Assembly: GCF_900168025.1 (NCBI RefSeq)
Contig: NZ_FUYN01000002.1
Coordinates: 150,343-214,342, forward strand
Source: Acetoanaerobium noterae
GTDB lineage: Bacteria; Bacillota; Clostridia; Peptostreptococcales; Filifactoraceae
Reading direction: 5' to 3'
DNA: 64,000 bases
The position numbers and the translations under genes are program-made. Positions 48,311-53,024 of this stretch are shown here, piece after piece. Positions within the stretch are counted from its first letter, which is position 1; every line of letters begins with the position of its first letter. The notes under the pieces were generated by a model. It did not search any database, was not told where the DNA came from, and saw only the letters and a list, made by a program, of their open reading frames with translations.

Positions 48311-48709
48311 ATGTATCAAATTTTAGGCGATGAAGTCTATGACAGCCAGGATATAGCAAAGAAGATTGAGCAGTACACTAGCTTTACAGTAAGAGAAGAT
48401 ATGAGCAAGAGAACAAAGCGCGATGATGCACTTGCATTTAAGCTGAGCATACCAGTGAAAAAATTAGATCCTACAGCAAAGGATTATATTGAGGACGATA
48501 CAGAAATCAATCATCTAATGGTACTTGCAGACGAGATGAGCAACTCTCAAATGGAAAATTTAGGGCTTAAATTTGCAGTTCAAAAAAGCTATGCCTATAC
48601 GTACGATGAGGTAAAAAACGAAATCCTCCTTGTAAGCGGAATCATGCATATTTCAAATGGAAGAAGAAAACTTCCTGATGTTATGAAGAGGCTACTTAGC
48701 CAAGTCTAG
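48311..48709 (+). CDS. Hypothetical cytoplasmic protein
   Basis: 132 residues, not recognised. Soluble, highly charged, without Cys; a C-terminal basic helix (GRRKLPDVMKRLLSQV). AAAAGGAGG lies before the ATG, so it is very likely translated. It precedes the glycosyltransferase cassette but is separated from it by a terminator-like hairpin. Function unknown. Confidence 0.65.
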   Translation: MYQILGDEVYDSQDIAKKIEQYTSFTVREDMSKRTKRDDALAFKLSIPVKKLDPTAKDYIEDDTEINHLMVLADEMSNSQMENLGLKFAVQKSYAYTYDEVKNEILLVSGIMHISNGRRKLPDVMKRLLSQV

Positions 48710-48767
48710 ACTCCATCCAACTTTAAATCAAAACATAATATGTTAATTTTTGTTAATTTTGGGTAAA

Positions 48768-48798
48768 AACTTCTATCAAGAGCGATAGAAGTTTTTTT
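48768..48798 (+). terminator. Terminator hairpin immediately before the glycosyltransferase cassette
   Basis: AACTTCTATC / GATAGAAGTT stem, 6-nt loop, seven T. The T-run ends only 18 nt before the next start codon, leaving no room for a promoter in between. It therefore acts either as the end of the upstream gene or as an attenuator of the cassette. Confidence 0.8.
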
Positions 48799-48815
48799 AG
48801 TGGAAAGGAGAAAGT

Positions 48816-50024
48816 ATGAAAGTAGCATTAGGATTAATTACAAAATATATAAATGCCGACATTTCTATTTTAGACTTTGTTAAGAACGCCAATAAATTTG
48901 GGCATGAAATCGATGCTCTTATTATCTGCTATTCTCATGGGTATGACAGACCCTTTGTTGAAAAACTAGAAAGAGAATTTCCAAAGACCCATTTAATCAA
49001 GGTAAACCATAGCTATGATATGGAAAGAGACCTTAGAAAAAGAGGAATAAGAGCCAAGGATTTTATGCCTCTTATCTATGCAGAAACCTTGGAAAACTAT
49101 GGACTTTTGCCATATAGCACATATAGAAATACAGTTCTAATCAAAGCAATGCTCTTAGAAATGGACGCATTATTCTTCGTAGATACGGACGTTTATCCCC
49201 TGCTTTTAAAACCAAGTCATAGAAAGTCAAATCTTCCAGATTATATATCACTAAAAGATACCAAAGAACTCGAAGACTATGAACTTGAAGAAATTGATTT
49301 CTTCGAAAGACATTTTAAATATCTGAATCAAAACGATGTAATGGTCACAACTAGCGACTACTCGGGCTATTACATCATTCCACCTATGGAGTATTCATAT
49401 CTAGATGAGTATCTAGGAGGACTTCAAAAGGAATCGGCTATAGATTTTGTAAAGAGCTGTAGTGGAACTGGCTGCATAAATTTTGCTTCTAAGGAAGAAA
49501 AGCCATATAGCACAGATAAGTTCTTAGGTGGAAATATGGCAATAAAGCTCAAAGCATTTAAGGAGCTTCCGCCATTTTTCTCCACTACCTATATGGCAGG
49601 AGATGAGCTTGTACTAACTAGAGGCGAGGATACCCTTATGGGAACATTTGCAAAAAACAATCAGCTAAAAGCTGTGGATATAGATACTTTGATATTTCAC
49701 AACACCTATTCGGATTTTCCGAAAGTGCCTGACATTGTAAACAGTGTGGCTATAAAGGATAGATTCTATTATGCATCTCTAGGCTGGATAGGCAGGAATC
49801 CATTTATGAACTATATAAATGGAAATGACTACAAGGCTCTTTATGAAAAACAAAAAGAATTCCTTGTAAAAAGTAGTGTCCATACAGCTAGATACCTAAA
49901 GGACAGAAGGTTTTTGATTATGCCAACTGCAATAGACAGTGCTATGAAAAGCTTTAACAGGGTATTAGATGAATATGAGCTTTCTATGGAAGGCTTTGAT
50001 CACATCAAAATGAAGCTTATTTAA
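48816..50024 (+). CDS. Putative GT-A-type glycosyltransferase
   Basis: 402 residues. No signal peptide. The N-terminus (MKVALGLITKYINADISILDFV) and FFVDTDVYP (D123-T-D125, a DXD-type nucleotide-sugar/metal motif) suggest a GT-A glycosyltransferase; GGNMAIKLKAF resembles the acceptor-side strand of GT2-like enzymes. Not a clear member of a family I know. First of three co-directional genes (17-nt and 26-nt gaps) flanked by terminators. Substrate unknown. Confidence 0.7.
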   Translation: MKVALGLITKYINADISILDFVKNANKFGHEIDALIICYSHGYDRPFVEKLEREFPKTHLIKVNHSYDMERDLRKRGIRAKDFMPLIYAETLENYGLLPYSTYRNTVLIKAMLLEMDALFFVDTDVYPLLLKPSHRKSNLPDYISLKDTKELEDYELEEIDFFERHFKYLNQNDVMVTTSDYSGYYIIPPMEYSYLDEYLGGLQKESAIDFVKSCSGTGCINFASKEEKPYSTDKFLGGNMAIKLKAFKELPPFFSTTYMAGDELVLTRGEDTLMGTFAKNNQLKAVDIDTLIFHNTYSDFPKVPDIVNSVAIKDRFYYASLGWIGRNPFMNYINGNDYKALYEKQKEFLVKSSVHTARYLKDRRFLIMPTAIDSAMKSFNRVLDEYELSMEGFDHIKMKLI

Positions 50025-50041
50025 AAAGGAGGATTCTAAAA

Positions 50042-51235
50042 ATGAAGGTATTACTTGTAAATCATTTTCCTCTTGAGGGTTCAGGAAGTGGTATTTATAC
50101 CAAGAATATAGCTTCTAAACTTACTGAGCTAGGTCATGAGGTAATGGTGATTCTTCCAGAACATACAAATATCAGTAAGCCTTATATAACCAAGAGCATA
50201 CTGTTTCGAAGCGAAGCAAATAAAGGTGAAAAGGTAGATGCAGAGTTCAATTTCCCTTGCTTTACGACGCATCCTAAAAGCAATAACACCTTTTATCAGC
50301 TTACAGATGAGCAGATGCACCATTATATAGATTTGATGCAGATAGCTATAGATGAAGCTGTAGCTATCTTTAAGCCCGATATCATACATTGTCAGCATCT
50401 GTGGATAGCGCCTTATTGCGCTAGCAAGACAGGAGTTCCCTATGTAGCTACAGCTCACGGGACAGATTTAAAAGGTCTTGTACTCGACTCAAGATATGTG
50501 CCTTATGCCCTTGAAGGAGCTCAAAAATCTAAAAAAATAATAACTATCTCCAAGCAAGTGGATTATGAGGTAGGCGAAAAATACTCAGTCCCTGATTCTC
50601 TTAGAAGACTGATTTTAAATGGATTTGATGAGAGCATATTCAATCTAAAGCCTGTAAGCAGAAAAGAAGTTCTTGCTAGCTTTGGACTGCCTGATGCAAG
50701 GCATGTAGTTTCTTTTGTAGGCAAGCTAGCTCATTTCAAAGGGGTAGACCTACTTCTAAAAGCCGCAAAGATTTACGAGGAAGAAGTGGAAGATGTAATG
50801 ACACTTATTGTAGGTCATGGAGAGCTTTATGATGAGCTTAATAATTTAAGAAGAAGCCTAGGGCTAAAACACGTATATATGCTAGGGCATCAGCATCAAG
50901 AAAAGGTAGCTGATATCTATAACATAGCTGATGTATCGACAGTCCCTTCTAGAAAGGAACCTTTTGGACTTGTGGCTATAGAGGCATTAGCCTGCGGAAC
51001 TCCAGTCGTAGTTACAAATGGAGGCGGACTAGTGGATTTTGTAGATGATACTATAGGAAGCGTAATAGATGAAGAGGACTATGAAGCTCTAGCAAAATCC
51101 ATAATTTCAGAAATAAAAAACCCTGACAAAAAAGCCAAAAGAAAACGAGCTCATGAGTTTGCTATGAAAGAGTTTTCATGGAACAGAGTCATAGATGAAG
51201 TGATTGACGTATATGAGAAGGCTATAAAAGGATAG
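50042..51235 (+). CDS. GT4-family glycosyltransferase
   Basis: 397 residues, GT-B fold. N-terminal half with NHFPLEGSGSGIYTKNIA (nucleotide-loop region) and C-terminal half with SFVGKLAHFKGVDLLLKA, and the GT4 donor-binding signature PSRKEPFGLVAIEALACGTP (E-X7-E). Retaining transferase using a nucleotide sugar; product unknown. AAAAGGAGG precedes the ATG. Middle gene of the cassette. Confidence 0.9.
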   Translation: MKVLLVNHFPLEGSGSGIYTKNIASKLTELGHEVMVILPEHTNISKPYITKSILFRSEANKGEKVDAEFNFPCFTTHPKSNNTFYQLTDEQMHHYIDLMQIAIDEAVAIFKPDIIHCQHLWIAPYCASKTGVPYVATAHGTDLKGLVLDSRYVPYALEGAQKSKKIITISKQVDYEVGEKYSVPDSLRRLILNGFDESIFNLKPVSRKEVLASFGLPDARHVVSFVGKLAHFKGVDLLLKAAKIYEEEVEDVMTLIVGHGELYDELNNLRRSLGLKHVYMLGHQHQEKVADIYNIADVSTVPSRKEPFGLVAIEALACGTPVVVTNGGGLVDFVDDTIGSVIDEEDYEALAKSIISEIKNPDKKAKRKRAHEFAMKEFSWNRVIDEVIDVYEKAIKG

Positions 51236-51261
51236 TAGAATTTTGCGAAAGGAGAACTTCT

Positions 51262-52998
51262 ATGAGACGAGTAATGGTGATACCTGTTTATTATTCTAGA
51301 CCTAAATCAGAAGGGCATCAAGACGGAGACTCGGTATATGACCACCCCACACCTATAGATGAAGATGGTACCTTAAAGCGGACCTTAGAAAGTATTAGAA
51401 TCATTAAAAATCAAGATTTTCAGCTGGTGATATTAGTTTCGCCTACAAGTGAAGAGCTTACAGATAGAGCAAAGGAGAAAGTAAACAAAATTCTATCTGA
51501 AGTGAATCTAGACATTCAGACTTTTATCTTTACTCCTGCAGAGCTTGAAAAAATTAAAGCTCTAGCGGCAGAGCAAGATGTAGACCAGAGCGTTATTAAG
51601 CTTATGAATATAAGAGGGTATGCAAATGTTAGAAACATGTGCATTTATACTGCATATATACTAGGCGCAGAAATGGCTATGCTCATTGATGACGATGAGC
51701 TATTTGAAAAAGAGGATTTTGTGGATTTGGCATCTCAGTATATAGGTGGAAGGCTTTACGGAAAGACTATAGATGGAGTAGCTGGATACTATCTCAACAA
51801 ATATGGCAATTACTATGATGATGTAGATATAGAGCCATGGATGACTTACTGGGATAGATTTGGTTTTAAAGGAAAAGCCTTTGATAAAATAATCGGGCAA
51901 GAGCCTAGAATAAAGCTTACTCCGTTTGCATTTGGTGGAGCAATGATAATTCATAGAAATCTTTTTAAAACAGTGCCATTTGATCCGAATGTAACTAGAG
52001 GAGAGGATATAGATTATCTTATAAATGCAAAGATGTTTGGCTTTCACTTTTTCTTAGATAGAGAGCTTTCTATCAAGCATTTGCCACCTAAGAAAACTCA
52101 TCCAGTTTGGAAGAGATTTAGAGAGGACATATACAGATTCCTCTATGAAAAAGCCAAGATAGATTCACAAAGAGACCTTCCGAATATGAACAAGGTAACG
52201 AGTCACGATTTTGACCCATATCCAGGAAATTTCCTTACAAATGAACTAGAGGATATGATATTTAAAGCAAATATCATGTTGGCTATGGATTATCTTAGCA
52301 ATGGAGATATAGAATCAGCAAAGCAAACTATGAACAATATCTATCTTTCAAAATACGATGCTATGCCAAAATTCAATGTTTTTGATGCCTTTATAGAACT
52401 TCAAAAAGACTGGAAAAGTCTGTTGAGTTTTACAAAGCAGTACATGATTGATATAAGAGCTATTATGGATATGGCAGAGTTTGGTTATGTCAAAAAATAC
52501 GATAAAAAATCTGAGCTGGTATCTATGTCTAGAGATGAGATGGAAATTATTCTTAAATCCATGGATTTCTTTAATAATTTAGAAGAAGATGAAATAGATA
52601 CCCTTGCGGCAATAGCAAAAATGAAGGAATATCCTGAAAATACTTTCATAGGCAAGGCCAATGAAAAAGTTGTCAGAATGAGAATAATATATAAAGGTGT
52701 GGTTAGGATTCAGAAGGAAACCTTGTCAGGAGATTCTGTAGACCTTGCTATACTTGAAAAGGGAGATTATTTTGGAGAGAGCTTTGATAAGAACTTCACT
52801 TCCTATGTGGATATAATAGCTGAAGAGGATTGCGAGCTTATAGAAATAGAGCATGCGGACCTTGTGAGCCTCATAGAGTCTCAGCCAATGCTAGGTATTA
52901 GAATACTTCAGATGCTAAATGCGAAGCTATCGCTCAAGCTAAAAACTTTAAATGAACGCTATACCTTGCTTTCGGATAGAGGAAGTAGTATATATTAA
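51262..52998 (+). CDS. Glycosyltransferase fused to a cyclic-nucleotide-binding-type domain
   Basis: 578 residues. The N-terminal ~330 residues look like a GT-A/GT2 enzyme: MLIDDDELFE (D143-D145) as metal/nucleotide motif, FAFGGAMIIHRNLF and TRGEDIDYL as acceptor/catalytic strand. A helical linker (about 340-430) leads to a CRP-like domain (about 435-565; FFNNLEEDEIDTLA, then YFGES about 503-507). The phosphate-binding cassette lacks its usual Arg (reads FTSYVD), so cAMP or cGMP binding is doubtful; another ligand or a structural role is possible. The fusion is unusual. Last gene of the cassette, before a terminator. Confidence 0.78.
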   Translation: MRRVMVIPVYYSRPKSEGHQDGDSVYDHPTPIDEDGTLKRTLESIRIIKNQDFQLVILVSPTSEELTDRAKEKVNKILSEVNLDIQTFIFTPAELEKIKALAAEQDVDQSVIKLMNIRGYANVRNMCIYTAYILGAEMAMLIDDDELFEKEDFVDLASQYIGGRLYGKTIDGVAGYYLNKYGNYYDDVDIEPWMTYWDRFGFKGKAFDKIIGQEPRIKLTPFAFGGAMIIHRNLFKTVPFDPNVTRGEDIDYLINAKMFGFHFFLDRELSIKHLPPKKTHPVWKRFREDIYRFLYEKAKIDSQRDLPNMNKVTSHDFDPYPGNFLTNELEDMIFKANIMLAMDYLSNGDIESAKQTMNNIYLSKYDAMPKFNVFDAFIELQKDWKSLLSFTKQYMIDIRAIMDMAEFGYVKKYDKKSELVSMSRDEMEIILKSMDFFNNLEEDEIDTLAAIAKMKEYPENTFIGKANEKVVRMRIIYKGVVRIQKETLSGDSVDLAILEKGDYFGESFDKNFTSYVDIIAEEDCELIEIEHADLVSLIESQPMLGIRILQMLNAKLSLKLKTLNERYTLLSDRGSSIY

Positions 52999-53024
52999 AA
53001 AAGATGGGCTTAGCCCATCTTTTC
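52999..53024. terminator. Terminator after the glycosyltransferase cassette
   Basis: AAAAGATGGGCT / AGCCCATCTTTT near-perfect palindrome starting at the stop codon. Confidence 0.8.

Follow-up and report, generated by a model that had tools for sequence, protein, structure and literature searches.

The trio locus and its proteins

Within a 64,000-nucleotide stretch of the Acetoanaerobium noterae genome (contig NZ_FUYN01000002.1, positions 150,343 to 214,342 of the forward strand; hereafter the window), we analyzed three consecutive genes, termed G1, G2 and G3, of which the third encodes a glycosyltransferase (GT) domain fused to a cyclic nucleotide-binding (CNB) domain (Table 1). An earlier note on this DNA, made from the sequence alone, had described a tight three-gene unit starting at 48816, 50042 and 51262, and three open reading frames are indeed found there, 17 bp (G1-G2) and 26 bp (G2-G3) apart, each preceded by a Shine-Dalgarno-like sequence. 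The unit had also been said to lie between terminators. Our own hairpin scan detects a hairpin on both sides, though a simple consensus terminator scan lists neither, probably because the T-run was largely counted into the stem; the terminator call is taken from our own scan together with the sequence.

Table 1. Features of the trio locus, with positions in the window
Feature	Position	Strand	Basis
Terminator-like hairpin (28 nt) with T-run	48767..48801	+	Own hairpin scan and sequence
G1, GT-A fold glycosyltransferase-like protein, 402 aa	48816..50024	+	Model and GT-A structure matches
G2, GT4 glycosyltransferase, 397 aa	50042..51235	+	PF00534 (E 7.5e-38) and PF13439, both above cut-off
G3, GT-A domain (about residues 1-390), CNB domain (about 426-565) and C-terminal helix, 578 aa	51262..52998	+	
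CNB domain of G3, residues 426-565	52537..52956	+	PF00027, structure, alignment
Hairpin 3' of G3, likely intrinsic terminator	52999..53023	+	Hairpin scan

The N-terminal part of G3 received no Pfam or NCBIfam assignment, and GT models match a minority of the 75 aligned G3 homologues (at most 8/75 per model at E-values up to 5). The predicted structure, calculated with the family alignment as input (mean pLDDT 89.7, pTM 0.74), matches many structures of the glycosyltransferase A (GT-A) fold, and a DxD-type motif is present. This motif, the DDD at residues 143-145 from which a GT-A-like enzyme had been suspected before, is invariant in 75/75 homologues, as are Arg246, Glu248, Asp249, Asp251 and His273.

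The C-terminal part of G3 had been described as a CNB-type domain, and both family and fold agree with this. PF00027 matches residues 455-540 (E 7.7e-12, 45.5 bits against a gathering threshold of 27.5) and, at E-values up to 5, is found in 52 of the 75 aligned homologues; the corresponding part of the model matches solved CNB domains (TMt 0.79 for CNB-B of PKG; Z 19.5 for 3gyd, with 160 aligned residues at 2.7 A). In the model, a 31-residue C-terminal helix (residues 542-572) follows, and the protein ends six residues later (578). The Pfam scan identified no helix-turn-helix family, no DNA-binding domain follows this helix, and G3 does not qualify as a CRP/FNR transcription factor.

The phosphate-binding arginine of the CNB cassette, which the earlier note had found missing, corresponds to residue 514 of G3 in the register of the CNB domain alignments. 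The window's protein has Ser at this position, and the arginine is gone in 51/52 CNB rows (H 24, F 12, Y 9, S 2, I 2, V 1, M 1, R 1), with His, Phe or Tyr in its place in 45/52. Elsewhere in the cassette, Glu506 is retained in 48 of the 52 rows and replaced in 4, and Ala520 is retained in 51. Class III cyclases (PF00211; other cyclase classes were not searched) were not found in 15 of 25 genomes, among them the window's and that of A. pronyense (G001; its contig is the one of locus L043); the 25 also include the two genomes without G3. Because the cassette arginine is lost and these 15 genomes have no PF00211 cyclase, the CNB domain of G3 appears unlikely to be a cAMP sensor.

Like the N-terminal part of G3, G1 has no Pfam or NCBIfam assignment in the family scans, and its profile gave three matches to PDB sequences, the best with an E-value of 0.81 and none meaningful. 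Its predicted structure (family alignment input, mean pLDDT 93.6) again matches many GT-A structures, and D123 and D125 of a DTD motif at residues 123-125 are invariant in 48 G1 rows. In a single profile comparison, G1 and G3 matched with an hhalign probability of 93.7 (E 1.8e-7), which makes G1 a remote GT-A paralogue of G3. The two are putative members of an unclassified GT-A superfamily, with the reservation that a shared fold alone shows no function.

G2 is counted as a GT4 enzyme by its N- and C-terminal GT4 domains, and relatives were found in the PDB. Among the NCBIfam matches listed (25 of 54), all are below cut-off, including TIGR02095 (GlgA) with 93.6 bits against a cut-off of 328.45 and the other GlgA models among those listed. 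None of the three proteins contains a transmembrane-like stretch (top 19-residue Kyte-Doolittle mean 1.15-1.62, versus 2.51 for a membrane control), in agreement with the cytoplasmic system that had been suggested.

Conservation of the trio and history of the fusion

In order to find the same trio and the GT-CNB architecture in other genomes, as the earlier note had proposed, we used a pattern-based, non-exhaustive scan of a collection in which 84,980 species are represented by a single genome each. It identified 92 relatives, of which the best 80 were kept; with the window and L032 added, this gave 82 loci. Clustering placed G1 in 53 of them and G2 in 55. Of the G3 candidates, 78 had a length of 385 aa or more, and four of these did not enter the G3 alignment (L067 and L086, with the G3 frame split in two; L095 and L110, which start at a contig end); three more loci, cut by contig ends, were too short for it (L092, L094, L108). 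In tblastn searches, both partners were present in L067, L086, L092 and L094, only G1 in L108, and neither in L095 and L110; these last three loci are at contig ends.

The trio was found in Bacillota and Atribacterota, with the order G1-G2-G3, and in Cloacimonadota and one Armatimonadota bin, with the order G1-G3-G2. It is thus conserved across phyla and therefore not a chance arrangement. According to tblastn, both partners are adjacent in 47/52 CNB-bearing G3 rows (51 loci and the window), with a weak and broken G1 match in L079; of the remaining rows, L050, L078 and L084 are at contig ends. Among the 23 GT-only G3 homologues, 14 of which are archaeal, G1 was seen in none and G2 in one (L096), but for L106, L111, L120 and L121 less than 2.3 kb of upstream sequence is available, so that G1 could be out of sight.

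Closer to the window, 297 genomes of its order contained G1 (E < 1e-120) in 21 cases and G3 (E < 1e-140) in 19, all 19 being within the 21. Six more genomes with weak G1 matches (E 4.8e-32 to 2.9e-21) and a twentieth genome, G007, with a distant GT-only G3 relative (E 1.0e-44) were not counted as trio members. Class-wide, G1 was present in 3/391 genomes, including the window's own; both the order-wide and the class-wide set are samples from larger groups. In a further tally (40/59), ordinary CRP-type proteins are counted along with true relatives, and it does not give the occurrence of the fusion. Among viral contigs, 2 stretches matched a pattern, and neither encodes a relative.

The trio is not always intact. 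Genomes G089 and G153, from one genus, have a strong G1 and no G3, keeping the order G1-G2-galU; G3 was probably lost alone in this genus. In genome G245, two other genes are found between G1 and G2.

On a tree of the GT domain, the CNB label needs two changes, compared with a mean of 22.7 for shuffled labels, and none of 500 shuffles was as low. We read the two changes as a single gain and a single loss. The sole GT-only row within the CNB clade is L096, an Anaerolineaceae bin, which is also without an adjacent G1 and whose placement is somewhat doubtful due to its long branch. The GT domain itself differs between the two types: Arg164 is present in 52/52 CNB-type rows versus 0/23 GT-only rows, and Arg199 in 52/52 versus 1/23, so that the enzyme changed with the fusion. 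The simplest reading of these sequence patterns would be that fusion, partner genes and altered active site arose together.

Some distant relatives were found in other settings. Four GT-only G3 relatives (L034, L035, L036 and L130; 28-34% identity) adjoin ABC permease genes and have genes for GH92 mannosidase, alpha-amylase or NAGPA-domain proteins near, an odd setting for a glycosyltransferase. In a Thermodesulfobacteriota bin, an inositol-3-phosphate synthase-type gene (L119:1541-2641) is located just 5' of a GT-only G3 homologue, and at L132:7648-10439 a distant homologue of G1, with 26% identity, shares an overlap with a gene for a protein that matches Anp1 and GT2 models.

Neighbouring genes and possible roles of the trio

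The earlier note had reported neither sugar-nucleotide nor flippase genes nearby. For the window this holds in the four flanking genes scanned, but not for all loci of the family. In 8/82 loci, the gene immediately after G3 is of the GalU type, and all eight are Bacillota as judged from record titles or tree labels. A GalU-type gene also follows G1-G2 in both genomes without G3, and the three GalU proteins scanned (L032, L051 and, from a genome without G3, L123) all score above the TIGR01099 cut-off. For at least one step, the donor is thus most likely UDP-glucose. As for flippases, a MurJ-type cluster gene (PF03023, one representative scanned) is divergent beside G1 in 6/82 loci, all of them in Cloacimonadota or the one Armatimonadota bin. 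Apart from this gene, no flippase or polymerase of the Wzx/Wzy type was seen among the scanned neighbours, many of which are unannotated.

The upstream hairpin (about 48767-48794) ends 21 nt 5' of the G1 start, just upstream of the G1 ribosome-binding site, and 48767-48801 may be an attenuator or a leaky terminator between the gene at 48311 and the trio. There is scant space for a promoter between this hairpin and the ribosome-binding site. In 47 loci scanned, a hairpin at most 30 nt from the G1 start was also detected in L043 and L046; the close relatives L044 (no hairpin) and L045 (hairpin 71 nt off) have none within this distance. A 115-nt stretch containing the hairpin after G3 folds with a z-score of -3.82. 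In five loci (the window and L043-L046), the trio is preceded by a gene for a 132-aa protein without family assignment (48311-48709 in the window) and followed by an M17-type aminopeptidase gene.

We propose that the trio encodes a soluble cytoplasmic glycosylation cascade, with at least one step probably fed by UDP-glucose, in which G3 is gated or organised by its CNB domain through a non-cyclic ligand or through dimerisation, and we assign this reading a probability of roughly 0.4. In this reading, G1, G2 and G3 would act in succession on a shared acceptor at the cytoplasmic side, and at least one of the sugars added would probably be glucose from UDP-glucose. G3 probably catalyses a step that is late or can be separated from the others, as G1-G2-GalU occurs without it in two genomes of a single genus. 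Its CNB domain would have kept the CRP-type fold and the C-helix, without a DNA-binding domain, and would no longer recognise a cyclic phosphate. Most likely, it gates or organises G3, and hence the cascade, either simply by dimerising or via a different ligand, which may contain ribose. The allosteric control suggested in the earlier note is a plausible inference.

A bolder form of this proposal, to which we give less credence, would make G3 the founder of a class of CNB-gated glycosyltransferases, in which the CNB domain has been adapted to a non-cyclic ligand (a nucleoside, a nucleotide-sugar or the pathway's own product) and switches the soluble cascade. If true, glycan synthesis would be tied directly to a metabolite pool, with no cyclase or transcription factor. 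Independent of this form, a GT-fused CNB domain in at least four phyla with two fixed partners provides a ready test of non-cyclic CNB ligands in bacteria and of allosteric control in soluble glycan synthesis, and G1 and G3 represent two GT-A families without Pfam or NCBIfam assignment. No description of the trio or of the GT-CNB fusion was found in the literature, as far as covered by open-licence PubMed Central papers; passages of PMC12419801 and PMC7159879 do not describe the trio system.

Several observations weigh against a gated cascade. The trio is broken in L091, which has no adjacent G1, and in L093, which has no adjacent G2. GalU is adjacent in Bacillota loci only, and the remaining scanned neighbours are mixed, mostly housekeeping and lineage-dependent. 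Conservation is lower in the CNB domain than in the GT domain (mean top-residue fraction 0.45 versus 0.69), which could indicate a structural rather than a ligand-binding role, and at positions 464 and 467, both conserved in the rest of the family, the window's CNB domain differs. Finally, a PF00211 cyclase is present in 10/25 genomes, and cAMP may thus be available in some of them.

The low conservation and the loss of the arginine would also be expected if the CNB domain merely dimerised or scaffolded G3 and bound no ligand, an alternative that concerns only the sensor, is compatible with any product and appears to us a lesser possibility. Glu506, replaced in four rows, would fit such a role, as would the long C-terminal helix, since CRP dimers have a comparable one. 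The CNB-homology domain of a KCNH channel (6syg) is among the G3 structure matches, and KCNH domains of this kind are not known to bind cyclic nucleotides. However, Glu506 and Ala520 are otherwise kept, and the residues replacing the arginine are restricted to a few types, as if the pocket were still in use.

With respect to the product, soluble GT-A and GT4 enzymes often build the sugar parts of glycolipids or envelope glycans. In this alternative, which we consider rather unlikely, the trio would assemble the head-group sugars of an envelope glycan or membrane glycolipid at the cytoplasmic face, with export enzymes encoded elsewhere. The enzyme types, the GalU adjacency and the MurJ-type gene beside G1 point in this direction, and models of envelope enzymes such as TuaC match G2, albeit far below cut-off. 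However, the scanned Bacillota neighbours (many of them unannotated) include no polymerase, flippase or lipid-priming gene, and the MurJ-type neighbour is divergent and restricted to the lineages named above.

Glycosylation of a cytoplasmic protein, with flagellin as the prime candidate in motile species, is still less probable. Flagellin is common in the G1-positive genomes of the order (20/21, versus 148/297 overall; raw counts, uncorrected for kinship and genome size), and in genomes G150, G165 and G171, all of one genus, a flagellin-like gene is divergent next to G1. The models of G1 and G3 resemble ppGalNAc transferases among others, but this GT-A resemblance is generic. Moreover, no PF00669 match was found in the trio genomes G245, G300, G301 and G304, nor in G302 (G3-G2 at a contig end), the completeness of the G300 series not being told. 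As these five genomes with trio-type loci are without a flagellin match, flagellin is not the general acceptor, and flagellin modification, which the earlier note had considered, was rejected as a general role. The flagellin-like gene (L053:6711-7457; G150, G165 and G171) is an open frame of 249-261 aa.

Synthesis of a storage glucan as a glycogen alternative, another role considered earlier, is very unlikely: the GalU neighbour and the matches of G2 to glycogen synthase models below cut-off would suit it, but a separate GlgA-like gene (PF08323, E 1.6e-91 on C4) is present at another place in the genome, G2 is far below the TIGR02095 cut-off, and no glycogen-branching gene was seen among the four flanking genes scanned.

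Comparison with known systems

The CNB domain of G3 shares fold, length and C-helix with the CRP/PKA-type domains (PF00027) and mostly keeps their cassette Glu (48/52), but differs by the loss of the Arg (51/52), by the fusion to a glycosyltransferase and by the absence of a DNA-binding or kinase part. A CNB domain with a replaced Arg is also found in the PKA regulatory subunit of trypanosomatids, which is reported to bind nucleosides instead of cyclic nucleotides, with a second Glu (E311/E435) being decisive (PMC10959531). Trypanosomatid structures (6hyi, 6ftf) are among the G3 structure matches, but the comparison is one of working principle only. The counterpart of the second Glu in G3, assigned by eye, is residue 508, and no Glu is among the residues listed at this position for 51/52 rows.

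For the GT-A parts, the best VIA match is the GT75 mutase MtdL, both for G1 (7yua, Z 20.4, 277 aligned residues, 3.5 A) and for G3 (7xpr, Z 20.6, 276 aligned residues, 3.4 A), with plant UAM2 and ppGalNAc transferases among the lower matches. GT75 NDP-pyranose mutases (MtdL, UAM/RGP; PMC9937993) share a DDD motif and a later His, in a similar sequence order. With a small GT75 profile of three sequences, no sequence relation was seen (hhalign probabilities 0.2 and 0.4), and no RGP match was seen among the families listed in the Pfam scans. By eye, Arg164 of CNB-type G3 is a candidate counterpart of the autoglycosylated catalytic Arg of GT75.

Mannosyl-3-phosphoglycerate synthase (GT55) is a GT-A enzyme of similar length that the G3 model matches (2wvl, Z 18.4, 285 aligned residues, 3.7 A), but the Pfam scan of the window's G3 gave no GT55 family match. 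The mannosyl-3-phosphoglycerate route has two steps and a phosphatase partner. In the scanned flanks, no such partner directly adjoins the trio; a HAD-type gene is located opposite the L096 pair.

With regard to working principle, G3 can also be compared with the cellulose synthase BcsA, in which a GT-A enzyme is likewise fused to a nucleotide-sensor domain. BcsA is a membrane polymerase that senses c-di-GMP by a C-terminal PilZ domain, whereas in G3 no membrane stretch is seen and the fused domain is a CNB instead of a PilZ domain.

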